The translations under genes were made by a program, and so were the position numbers. From a virus, in the IMG/VR virus record IMGVR_UViG_3300013372_001857, positions 1-27,676 of that record: a stretch of DNA of 27,676 nucleotides. One strand, written 5' to 3'. The stretch's first letter is position 1. Each line of letters opens with the position of its first letter. Under the pieces are notes generated by a model. It was not told the origin of the DNA, searched no databases, and saw only the letters and a list, made by a program, of their open reading frames with translations. Of the stretch, positions 799-6,271 are shown in pieces.

Positions 799-830
799 TT
801 TGGCTCACCCGGGAATGGATGTTATATTTA
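799..830 (+). promoter_or_regulatory. Bacteroidota-type promoter P1
   Basis: TTTGG at 799-803 and TATATTTA at 823-830 are separated by 19 bases. The start codon of the next gene is at 852. The right arm of the dyad is altered here (CCGGG instead of CCAAA), the only copy of the main series with this change. Confidence 0.75.
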
Positions 831-851
831 ATATAAATAAAAAATAAGAAC

Positions 852-1055
852 ATGAAAACAAAAATTAGTAAGAAAAAAATGTATTGGGTAACAGAATCAC
901 ACACCGTTGATTGTGTAAAATCATTTGTAGTAGAAGCTAATAATACACAAGAAGCAATTGATAAGATAAAACATGGTGATGGTGTATTAAGAAAGGTAGA
1001 ATATTTTACTGCAAATATAGGATGTTGGACAGGAGAATATTGGGGCAAATATTAA
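852..1055 (+). CDS. Small hypothetical protein with DpnD/PcfM-like motif (67 aa)
   Basis: The function is not recognised. The segment SFVVEANNTQEAIDKI followed by G.G and an acidic/aromatic end resembles the short EAENEEEA-type repeat of DpnD/PcfM-like proteins. The same pattern recurs in the C-terminus of the protein at 2118-2462 (FEVEADNEEEAIDMV), so the two genes probably share a small domain. The protein is basic at its N-terminus and has no signal peptide or membrane segment. It has its own promoter (P1) with an A-rich leader of roughly 15 bases and no Shine-Dalgarno sequence, and a further promoter cassette follows at once, so it is probably a single-gene unit or the first of overlapping transcripts. 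It is likely an early accessory gene. Confidence 0.7.
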   Translation: MKTKISKKKMYWVTESHTVDCVKSFVVEANNTQEAIDKIKHGDGVLRKVEYFTANIGCWTGEYWGKY

Positions 1056-1060
1056 ATAAA

Positions 1061-1092
1061 TTTGGCTACCCAAACACAACTCATTATATTTA
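1061..1092 (+). promoter_or_regulatory. Bacteroidota-type promoter P2
   Basis: TTTGG at 1061-1065 and TATATTTA at 1085-1092, spacing 19. The dyad is TTTGG-CTAC-CCAAA, with a 4-base centre instead of 5. The spacer differs from the other copies, yet the distance between the two boxes is kept. It drives the gene at 1114. Confidence 0.75.
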
Positions 1093-1113
1093 CAATAATA
1101 AAAAAATAAAAAT

Positions 1114-1461
1114 ATGAACATAATAATTGATGGAGTTGAATATATTCTTACTCCAGTAGAAAAAAAGATAATATTAGATCATCTTGAAATATACCCTGAA
1201 GATTTAGGTCAACATAATTGGGATGATGCTAATAAGATATGTGCTGAACTTGGTGATGGATGGAGATTACCTGAAAAGGAGGAGTTATATATGATGTGGC
1301 TCAATAAGGATGATAGTTTTAAAAATGCCAATTATTGGAGTTCTTGGGATGATAGAAGAGAAAACTTTAGTTGGGGGTTAAATTTTAAGTATGGTCATAG
1401 GGTTAATATTGAAAAGAAAACTACAGCCTATATTCGGGTGGTTAGGGGTCCTATTTTATAA
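1114..1461 (+). CDS. DUF1566/Lcl-like domain protein (115 aa)
   Basis: The middle of the protein, NWDDANKICAELGDGWRLP (residues 35-53), followed by EEL, then YWSS (74-77), a WGLNF stretch and IRVVRG (107-112), matches the DUF1566 / Lcl C-terminal domain, a small C-type-lectin-like fold common in Bacteroidota and their phages. Family members are often surface or ligand-binding modules, but here there is no signal peptide, so the protein is probably cytoplasmic or delivered in the virion. The first 30 residues are a short separate segment. It has its own promoter (P2) and an A-rich leader. The fold call is fairly firm; the role is unknown. Confidence 0.75.
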   Translation: MNIIIDGVEYILTPVEKKIILDHLEIYPEDLGQHNWDDANKICAELGDGWRLPEKEELYMMWLNKDDSFKNANYWSSWDDRRENFSWGLNFKYGHRVNIEKKTTAYIRVVRGPIL

Positions 1462-1471
1462 TTAAAGTAGG

Positions 1472-1503
1472 TTTGGCTCACCCAAAAACGGATGTTATAT
1501 TTA
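1472..1503 (+). promoter_or_regulatory. Bacteroidota-type promoter P3
   Basis: TTTGG at 1472-1476, dyad arm CCAAA at 1482-1486, TATATTTA at 1496-1503, spacing 19. It is nearly identical to P4-P6, and the likeness continues downstream into the A-rich leader. The real start codon of the next gene is the ATG at 1528, not the ATG inside the promoter at 1492. Confidence 0.78.
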
Positions 1504-1527
1504 ATTAATAATAAAAAACAAAGAAAC

Positions 1528-1758
1528 ATGACAAAAATTAACACACAAGATTGGAATGGTTTAAAAATCGCATTGAGAAATGAATTTGGAAAAGATGTAA
1601 TTATACATTTTTACAATGACAAGCAAAAGAGTTGGAGACGTATTAAAGCAAGTGTCCGAACATCAGATGTAAATAAAATAATTAAGTTTAGTAAAAAAAT
1701 GGGTTATGAGGTAAGTAAATTTACAGACCATGAGTTTGTATCTTACTTTACGGTTTAG
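1528..1758 (+). CDS. Small hypothetical protein (76 aa)
   Basis: No family was recognised. The frame could be extended to an ATG at 1492, but that start lies inside the spacer of promoter P3, and the extra residues would encode the promoter itself, so the ATG at 1528 (MTKINTQDWN...) is chosen. The protein is mixed-charge, with a WRRIKASVRTSDVNKIIKF segment in the middle that is basic and could contact nucleic acid, and a hydrophobic/aromatic end (FVSYFTV). There is no membrane segment or signal peptide. The next promoter begins on the base after its stop codon, which shows how tightly these cassettes are packed. It is likely an early accessory gene. Confidence 0.7.
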   Translation: MTKINTQDWNGLKIALRNEFGKDVIIHFYNDKQKSWRRIKASVRTSDVNKIIKFSKKMGYEVSKFTDHEFVSYFTV

Positions 1759-1790
1759 TTTGGCTCACCCAAACATGGATGTTATATTTA
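1759..1790 (+). promoter_or_regulatory. Bacteroidota-type promoter P4
   Basis: TTTGG at 1759-1763 and TATATTTA at 1783-1790, spacing 19, dyad TTTGG-CTCAC-CCAAA complete. It abuts the stop codon (1756-1758) of the upstream gene. The start codon of the next gene is at 1814. Confidence 0.78.
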
Positions 1791-1813
1791 CGATAATAAA
1801 AAAATAAAGAAAC

Positions 1814-2056
1814 ATGACAACAAAAACACAATTAACACCAGGTACAAAATTCAAAATCCACAACGGTAACAACATTATCTCAGATAGAATATTTGAGATG
1901 CATGATGGTTTTATATCGCAAGGTGGTTTATTCGGTAAACAGATGAATATCGAAAAAATGGGTAGTCGTAAAATAACATTATACACATTTAATATGGTGG
2001 GTATTATATCAATTGCGATTATCAAATATGAAGATATTGAAATAATTACCGAGTAG
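1814..2056 (+). CDS. Small hypothetical protein (80 aa)
   Basis: No family was recognised. The sequence is rich in beta-type residues, for example TPGTKFKIHNG near the start and RKITLYTF followed by IISIAII near the end, which suggests a small all-beta domain rather than a membrane protein. No cysteines, zinc motif or signal peptide are seen. It lies in the run of one-promoter-per-gene cassettes, with P4 upstream and P5 two bases after its stop codon. Translation starts at the ATG at 1814 after an A-rich leader without a Shine-Dalgarno site. An early, possibly host-directed accessory role is an inference from the context only. Confidence 0.65.
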   Translation: MTTKTQLTPGTKFKIHNGNNIISDRIFEMHDGFISQGGLFGKQMNIEKMGSRKITLYTFNMVGIISIAIIKYEDIEIITE

Positions 2057-2057
2057 G

Positions 2058-2089
2058 TTTGGCTCACCCAAAAATGAATGTTATATTTA
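2058..2089 (+). promoter_or_regulatory. Bacteroidota-type promoter P5
   Basis: TTTGG at 2058-2062 and TATATTTA at 2082-2089, spacing 19, dyad complete. It shares the downstream leader ATTAATAATAAAAAAC with P3 and P6. It drives the gene at 2118. Confidence 0.78.
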
Positions 2090-2117
2090 ATTAATAATAA
2101 AAAACAAAAACAAGAAC

Positions 2118-2462
2118 ATGACAAAAACAGCAAAACAATTTTTAGAGGGCCAATTGGCAAAACAAATCCTTAACGTGTTACAGGGTGATACGTCGGGTGT
2201 AGAATCAACACTTAAGATGTATGTTGAGGTAACAAATGCGATGCCAGAAGATACACCGTTAACAGGGTGGCTACAAGAGCAACTCATTAATAAATTCAGT
2301 AAGAAAACATTTGAGGTGACCAGGAGTATAGTTACCAATAATGTAGAGACATTTGAGGTAGAAGCCGATAACGAAGAAGAAGCAATTGATATGGTGATGC
2401 AAGGTAAGGGTACACAATTACGGACAGAGCGTTTCAATAACGAGGCAGAATATGATGCCTGA
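2118..2462 (+). CDS. Hypothetical protein with DpnD/PcfM-like C-terminal motif (114 aa)
   Basis: The N-terminal half is helical and contains KQFLEGQLAKQILNVLQ. The C-terminal half carries TFEVEADNEEEAIDMVMQG, the same pattern as in the 67-aa protein at 852-1055 and similar to the short DpnD/PcfM-like motif. The shared piece suggests that one domain was duplicated and joined to different partners within this cluster. No catalytic motif, signal peptide or membrane segment is visible. The gene has its own promoter (P5) and starts at the ATG after an A-rich leader; promoter P6 follows 18 bases after the stop. The function is unknown. Confidence 0.7.
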   Translation: MTKTAKQFLEGQLAKQILNVLQGDTSGVESTLKMYVEVTNAMPEDTPLTGWLQEQLINKFSKKTFEVTRSIVTNNVETFEVEADNEEEAIDMVMQGKGTQLRTERFNNEAEYDA

Positions 2463-2479
2463 AGATATTACAGAATAAG

Positions 2480-2511
2480 TTTGGCTCACCCAAAAATGGA
2501 TGTTATATTTA
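2480..2511 (+). promoter_or_regulatory. Bacteroidota-type promoter P6
   Basis: TTTGG at 2480-2484 and TATATTTA at 2504-2511, spacing 19, dyad TTTGG-CTCAC-CCAAA complete. It can be taken as the consensus copy of the series. The true start of the next gene is the ATG at 2542; the ATG at 2500 lies inside the promoter. Confidence 0.78.
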
Positions 2512-6111: not shown

Positions 6112-6271
6112 TGGTATAACAATTAAAATAGTAATAAGATATAAAAGGGTCAAGACCAAGGTACCTAACAGGTGCTCATGAACAGGTGAAATGATGGATA
6201 TGTACCATCCATTATAAGCCTTGGTTACCCAAAATTTGTAAATATTTAAACAAACATAAAAACGTAAAAAA
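6112..6271 (+). ncRNA. Structured leader RNA upstream of the lipoprotein gene
   Basis: This leader is much longer than the other leaders in the window. ACCAAGG (6155-6161) pairs perfectly with CCTTGGT (6219-6225). Inside lie a 4-bp hairpin ACCT/AGGT (6163-6173) and a 9-bp hairpin (6191-6199 with 6207-6215, one G-U pair, 7-base loop), giving a three-way junction. The direct repeat ACAGGTG occurs twice (6169-6175 and 6182-6188). The closing strand at 6219-6225 overlaps a second TTGG...CCCAAA box whose distance to a TATTTA element is about 3 bases too short for a good promoter. It may be a cis-regulatory RNA; no known riboswitch class was recognised. Confidence 0.4.

Follow-up and report, generated by a model that had tools for sequence, protein, structure and literature searches.

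An array of putative Bacteroidota-type promoter cassettes, each ahead of a single accessory gene, in a T4-like phage

Genes and repeated elements in the window

The DNA analysed here, called the window, has 27,676 bases and makes up an entire IMG/VR record. It belongs to a T4-like (Immutovirus-related) phage of Bacteroidota. T4-type baseplate wedge families lie within a contractile-tail module in its right part, and the closest cultured relative is Flavobacterium phage vB_FspM_immuto (Immutovirus, 160 kb; immuto below), which matches it in the baseplate wedge (47%) and DUF932 (40%) proteins and also encodes Gp20- and Gp23-type proteins. A megablast search of the window against known annotated phages gave no DNA-level match.

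The left part of the window alternates small genes with copies of one short element (Table 1). Nine elements of the form TTTGG-N19-TATATTTA lie on the plus (gene) strand, where dinucleotide shuffles predict 0.10, and the minus strand of the window has none. P2 to P6 start 0-17 nt past the preceding stop codon and P1 to P6 finish 21-30 nt ahead of the next ATG, almost wholly occupying the gaps between single small genes. The initial annotation had listed six such cassettes with the two boxes exactly 19 bases apart. All six are present and the spacing is true at each, but the list was incomplete, as P7 to P9 lie outside the range that it covered. It had also called P3 to P6 almost identical, which describes P3, P5 and P6 (6-8 pairwise differences in 60 nt) but not P4, which differs from them at 16-18 positions and has the promoter half alone in common.

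Table 1. Coordinates of the cassettes and of the genes that follow them
Feature	Position	Strand	Description
Cassette P1	799..851	+	-33 TTTGG, -7 TATATTTA, A-rich leader of 21 nt
P1 gene	852..1055	+	67 aa, no family; shares homology with P5 product in its C-terminal part
Cassette P2	1061..1113	+	5 nt past upstream stop; mini-dyad TTTGG-CTAC-CCAAA
P2 gene	1114..1461	+	115 aa; Pfam Lcl_C domain, just over cut-off
Cassette P3	1472..1527	+	12/56 differences from G005 ortholog, 6/60 from P5; overwritten by a neighbouring cassette
P3 gene	1528..1758	+	76 aa; homologs in G002 (41%) and L115 (35%), each with its own cassette and different neighbours
Cassette P4	1759..1813	+	Directly adjoins the upstream stop codon; its hairpin (-7.2 kcal/mol) is stronger than any other in the window
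P4 gene	1814..2056	+	80 aa, no family
Cassette P5	2058..2117	+	1 nt past upstream stop
P5 gene	2118..2462	+	114 aa; weak DpnD/PcfM-like match, under cut-off
Cassette P6	2480..2541	+	8/62 differences from G005 ortholog; flanking genes nearly identical
P6 gene	2542..2727	+	61 aa, basic; right-hand anchor, also in G009
Cassette P7	3251..3297	+	Outside the range of the initial annotation
P7 gene	3298..3831	+	177 aa; conserved in G005, G006 and G009
Cassette P8	4467..4528	+	Outside the range of the initial annotation
P8 gene	4529..5329	+	DUF932; gene and cassette form a unit
Putative promoter P9	6080..6111	+	Precedes a small ORF, with a conserved, structured leader in between

The genes between the cassettes had been described as single and unrelated. 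They are single, but not all are unrelated: the P1 and P5 products have a common 45-aa segment at 42% identity (E=1e-10). To the left of the array, ORF 1 (positions 1-357) is the C-terminal part, cut at the contig end, of a RecA/DnaB-like protein of ~270-290 aa, whose gene has its own cassette in four relatives (G001, G002, G003 and G004). The ~440 nt that follow (358-798) hold no convincing gene and have no relatives except for a hairpin at 364-400 (GGGTGGGAAAC..GTTTCCCGCCC) common to G009. Between the P6 gene and P7, positions 2883-2983 resemble a tRNA-Leu whose variable arm is long, although neither ARAGORN nor Rfam reported one there. Gene calling simply took the longest ORF, and counts of small genes are approximate.

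The promoter element in related phages

The exact extended motif is common to five IMG/VR contigs. A wider set of 123 sequences (1.49 Mb, including immuto) was built by adding relatives through ClpP, DUF932 and a phosphohydrolase anchor gene; the anchor gene is carried by more than 583 contigs, and most relatives were retrieved via two anchor genes, which over-represents cassette-poor flanks. In this set the gene strand holds 228 copies of.TTG-N20-TATATTTA and the opposite strand 7. The corresponding counts are 11 and 4 for a spacing of 19 and 13 and 6 for a spacing of 21, and a host-like TA..TTTG box is found 21 and 22 times, with no strand bias.

Immuto carries the same array, there at 66-76 kb; its record has no annotation of the array as such. 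Its 28 GTTG elements, 26 of them with N20, stand ahead of single small genes, and many carry the same leader, with GGTATCAATAATTAAAAC often following GTTG-N20-TATATTTA. The exact TTTGG motif has only 2 copies in immuto; this lineage uses GTTG as its -33 box instead, and its small genes are almost all different. Two immuto isolates, MW353175 and MW353176, differ by 4 mismatches in 18 kb (60-78 kb), and their virtually identical arrays offer no test of exchange.

Flavobacterial sigmaA promoters have a -7 box TAnnTTTG and an A-rich leader without a Shine-Dalgarno sequence (PMC9723704). The phage elements have the same TA..TTT core and the same kind of leader, but their -7 boxes end in A (TATATTTA) rather than G, their upstream box, TTTGG(C), is longer, and the distance between the boxes is fixed at 20 nt. 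Geometry, leader and missing Shine-Dalgarno sequence otherwise fit flavobacterial promoters, and the same sigma factor may read the phage boxes. Together with the strand bias, the geometry supports the earlier proposal of a Bacteroidota-type promoter; the elements are named promoter cassettes here, their activity as promoters being predicted from sequence.

Gene turnover and the hairpin component

Relatives at two distances reveal how the genes behind the cassettes change. The closer, G005, is 97% identical to the window over most of the shared length and 94% over the array, and at this identity gene order is fixed. G009 is more distant, with flanking proteins 64-82% identical, and the five genes behind P1 to P5 have no counterpart among the genes behind its seven cassettes in the same place. 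Across the set, 28/42 homologous small-gene pairs in which both members have a cassette share neither neighbour. An earlier expectation, differing gene content around persisting cassettes, is supported in G009 by replaced genes and in the family by changed neighbourhoods, though not among the closest relatives. Genes behind cassettes also lack any homolog more often than others do (74/152, 49%, versus 346/1339, 26%; p=2e-8).

The DUF932 gene and its cassette form a unit that follows ClpP in the window and in G007 and G008, is missing there in G009, and lies elsewhere in G003, G004 and immuto. In G001, a cassette, a RecA/DnaB-like gene (8972) and a second cassette stand between the orthologs of G004 genes 43523 and 45043; in G004 only a single cassette and a different gene lie between these two, and the copy of 8972 is 42 kb away behind a cassette. 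L077 has an extra gene inserted directly upstream of its DUF932 cassette, compared with L063 (regions L077 7440-7890 and L063 800-900).

The initial annotation had gone further, proposing mobile cassettes whose repeats let accessory genes be swapped by recombination; the corresponding alternative reading is that genes are exchanged mainly through homologous recombination at these repeats. The complete turnover between the window and G009 with cassettes kept, the relocation of gene 8972 between two flanking cassettes, and the excess of cassette genes without homologs would all fit such a cause, which is nonetheless doubtful, if still the best placed of the alternatives. Junctions between neighbouring genes are interrupted equally with and without a cassette (10/28 versus 71/206, p=1.0). 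Recent indel boundaries fall near a cassette in 17/348 cases, the chance level of ~5%. Gene order, moreover, is fixed at 97% identity. These comparisons have limited power: the close pairs at hand are mostly of cassette-poor lineages, and orthologs are missing for most array genes. Gene turnover is real; because breakpoints are not enriched at cassettes in either test, recombination there is not established as its cause, and that part of the earlier claim is not supported by them.

A second component of the cassettes is a dyad over the -33 box. An arm able to pair with TTTGG is present in 49/63 cassettes of a first set, against 9.6 by spacer shuffling, and in 35/72 of a fresh set, for which loop lengths of 4 or 5 had been set in advance and shuffling gives 4.6. 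Shuffling within columns, however, reproduces the pairing (76 versus 81 observed), and a fixed preference for YYRRR therefore describes the core dyad just as well. A non-circular frame test of core-dyad pairing failed, and the plain minimum free energy of TTTGG plus 19 nt was not significantly different from that of control TTTGG sites (p=0.16). A hairpin in every cassette was dropped on the strength of the column shuffles and the failed frame test. Three results lend the hairpin independent support: the fold strengths and stop-codon distances given below, and covariation of the two arms, a change of the first box base from T to C going with a change of the last arm base from A to G (TTTGG..A versus CTTGG..G; p=2e-5 overall), more weakly so within contigs (74/5000 shuffles).

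In a subset of copies the hairpin is clear. Folds with z<-3 are found in 8% of copies and 1% of controls, and those with z<-2 in 17/57 copies that lie 10-80 nt past a stop codon but in 0/38 that lie at 80-400 nt (p=6e-5). Strong hairpins, about 14% of copies, all stand close behind stop codons; their stem covers the -33 box together with some of the spacer, and a T run closes several of them (among others immuto 64498 and 69566, and G004 76984 and 93152). Immuto has hairpins at 64498, 67961, 68714, 69173, 69566 and 70242. Such copies most likely join a terminator for the upstream gene to the promoter of the next one, the two overlapping because the -33 box is itself a hairpin arm just past the upstream stop in this subset of relatives. 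The window's own copies are weak: the mean fold z of all nine is +0.2, and a 5-bp mini-dyad is all that remains of the hairpin. In the window itself a terminator-promoter fusion is therefore predicted from its homologs. The long cassette stem of L063, L073 and L077 retains most of its pairs despite base changes.

The TTTGG-N4/5-YYRRR dyad could instead serve as the operator of a regulator, from phage or host, rather than as an RNA hairpin. Column preferences account for it, it sits over the -33 box, and in the window it is short and thermodynamically weak. Its half-site positions, however, tolerate either purine or either pyrimidine, in the manner of wobble pairing, and its longer copies grow into clear stem-loops followed by T-rich stretches close behind stop codons, which makes an operator rather unlikely.

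Exchange between cassettes and known systems

The window and G005 have all genes in identical order, the genes differing at 2.8% of sites, and six of eight comparable cassettes are only 0-3% different. The exceptions are P3 (12/56 sites; binomial p=4e-8) and P6 (8/62; p=3e-4). The gene behind P3 differs at 1/231 sites, while P3 itself is 6/60 from P5 of the window and 14/60 from its G005 ortholog; P3 of G005 is in turn nearest to P1 of the window (10/60). On these distances P3 is a block replacement by a paralogous cassette; P6, whose flanking genes are nearly identical, has likewise been overwritten. A second case spans 42 kb in G004, where the cassettes at 44760 and 86698 have an identical leader and are 9/68 apart but 21-26 from their orthologs; the gene behind 86698 has an ortholog in G003 with a different cassette. 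At the level of aligned sequence, both cases demonstrate exchange between cassettes.

This argues against the notion that the copies are ordinary convergent promoters, a strong host-type promoter being needed for each gene and similarity arising by selection alone with no copying or mobility: the boxes and their spacing are selected, since they are invariant, breakpoints are not enriched at cassettes, and six cassettes are conserved between the window and G005, but the likeness runs on through spacer and leader, which selection on the boxes leaves unexplained, as it does P3 beside its nearly unchanged gene and the G004 pair, so that convergence by itself is improbable.

The array is probably best explained as a set of monocistronic accessory genes, each under its own copy of one phage promoter. 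Each copy spans the distance from the preceding stop codon to the next start codon and consists of a -33 box (TTTGG/.TTG), a -7 TATATTTA box whose distance from TTG is exactly 20 nt, and an A-rich leader of ~20-30 nt without a Shine-Dalgarno sequence; expression may be early in infection. Some copies in relatives have a -33 box that doubles as part of a hairpin, most likely terminating the preceding transcript, and in these the ~40-nt element would end one gene and start the next. Copies within one genome overwrite each other through ectopic recombination (gene conversion). Genes between the copies are gained, lost and replaced between species, which makes the array the family's hypervariable accessory locus, and shared cassettes might aid the integration of new genes. 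A more far-reaching version is tentative and on balance unlikely: that the terminator of the upstream gene has the -33 box itself as its 5' arm, and that fused ~40-nt elements of this kind, which end one transcript and start the next and are homogenised by gene conversion, serve a large clade of Bacteroidota phages as sockets for ever-renewed accessory genes.

The closest known parallel is the PeSL (promoter early stem-loop) cassettes of T4-type phages, reportedly described by Arbiol et al. in 2010 and by Comeau et al. These cassettes are said to combine a strong promoter, read by the principal sigma factor of the host, with a stem-loop that terminates the upstream transcript, and small circular DNAs reportedly arise from exchange between nearby cassettes. 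As in that system, small promoter elements are repeated in the gaps among small accessory genes, many near-identical copies being found in this layout in the window and its relatives; a stem-loop component is present, here in a subset of copies; the relatives are T4-like myoviruses; and genes turn over between cassettes. Going by descriptions of PeSLs, the present promoter is of Bacteroidota type (-33/-7) and not sigma70, the hairpin, where present, overlaps the -33 box and spacer and is weak in the window, and the exchange seen at the repeats is one of cassette sequence, with gene breakpoints not enriched there. A title cited in PMC4503421 calls the T4 PeSLs composite promoter-terminator motifs mediating shuffling. 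The comparison, already drawn in the initial annotation, fits better than could be known then, since the cassettes do have a hairpin component, which is weak in the window but strong in some of its relatives. On the best reading the array would be a Bacteroidota counterpart of the T4 PeSL cassettes, PeSL-like in its layout rather than a proven member. The haloarchaeal tailed virus HGTV-1 likewise has a conserved TATA-box and inverted repeat before most left-arm ORFs, for which a PeSL-like action was proposed (PMC3950731). In both viruses a promoter-like box and inverted repeat recur ahead of most ORFs of one genome arm, although promoter type (archaeal there), sequence and host are unrelated.

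The parallel hints at a T4 cassette design that either originated or persisted in combination with another type of promoter. Marine Bacteroidota phages are abundant and, to our knowledge, almost nothing is known of their gene regulation. The regularity of the motif would allow transcription units and small genes to be predicted in hundreds of uncultured relatives and offers a ready promoter part for Bacteroidota hosts. The cassettes mark fast-changing accessory genes, a place to seek host-takeover and anti-defence functions, and with the cultured immuto and its host, Flavobacterium sp. LMO8, the array is directly testable.

Between P9 and a small lipoprotein-like ORF lies a conserved, structured non-coding leader (6140-6240). 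An Rfam search of the window found tRNAs only, with nothing convincing in this leader or in 355-860. The leader is 77-100% identical over ~150 nt in most of 8 relatives, and 7 pairs of its consensus fold have changed on both sides; it is possibly a new cis-regulatory RNA or a small RNA.
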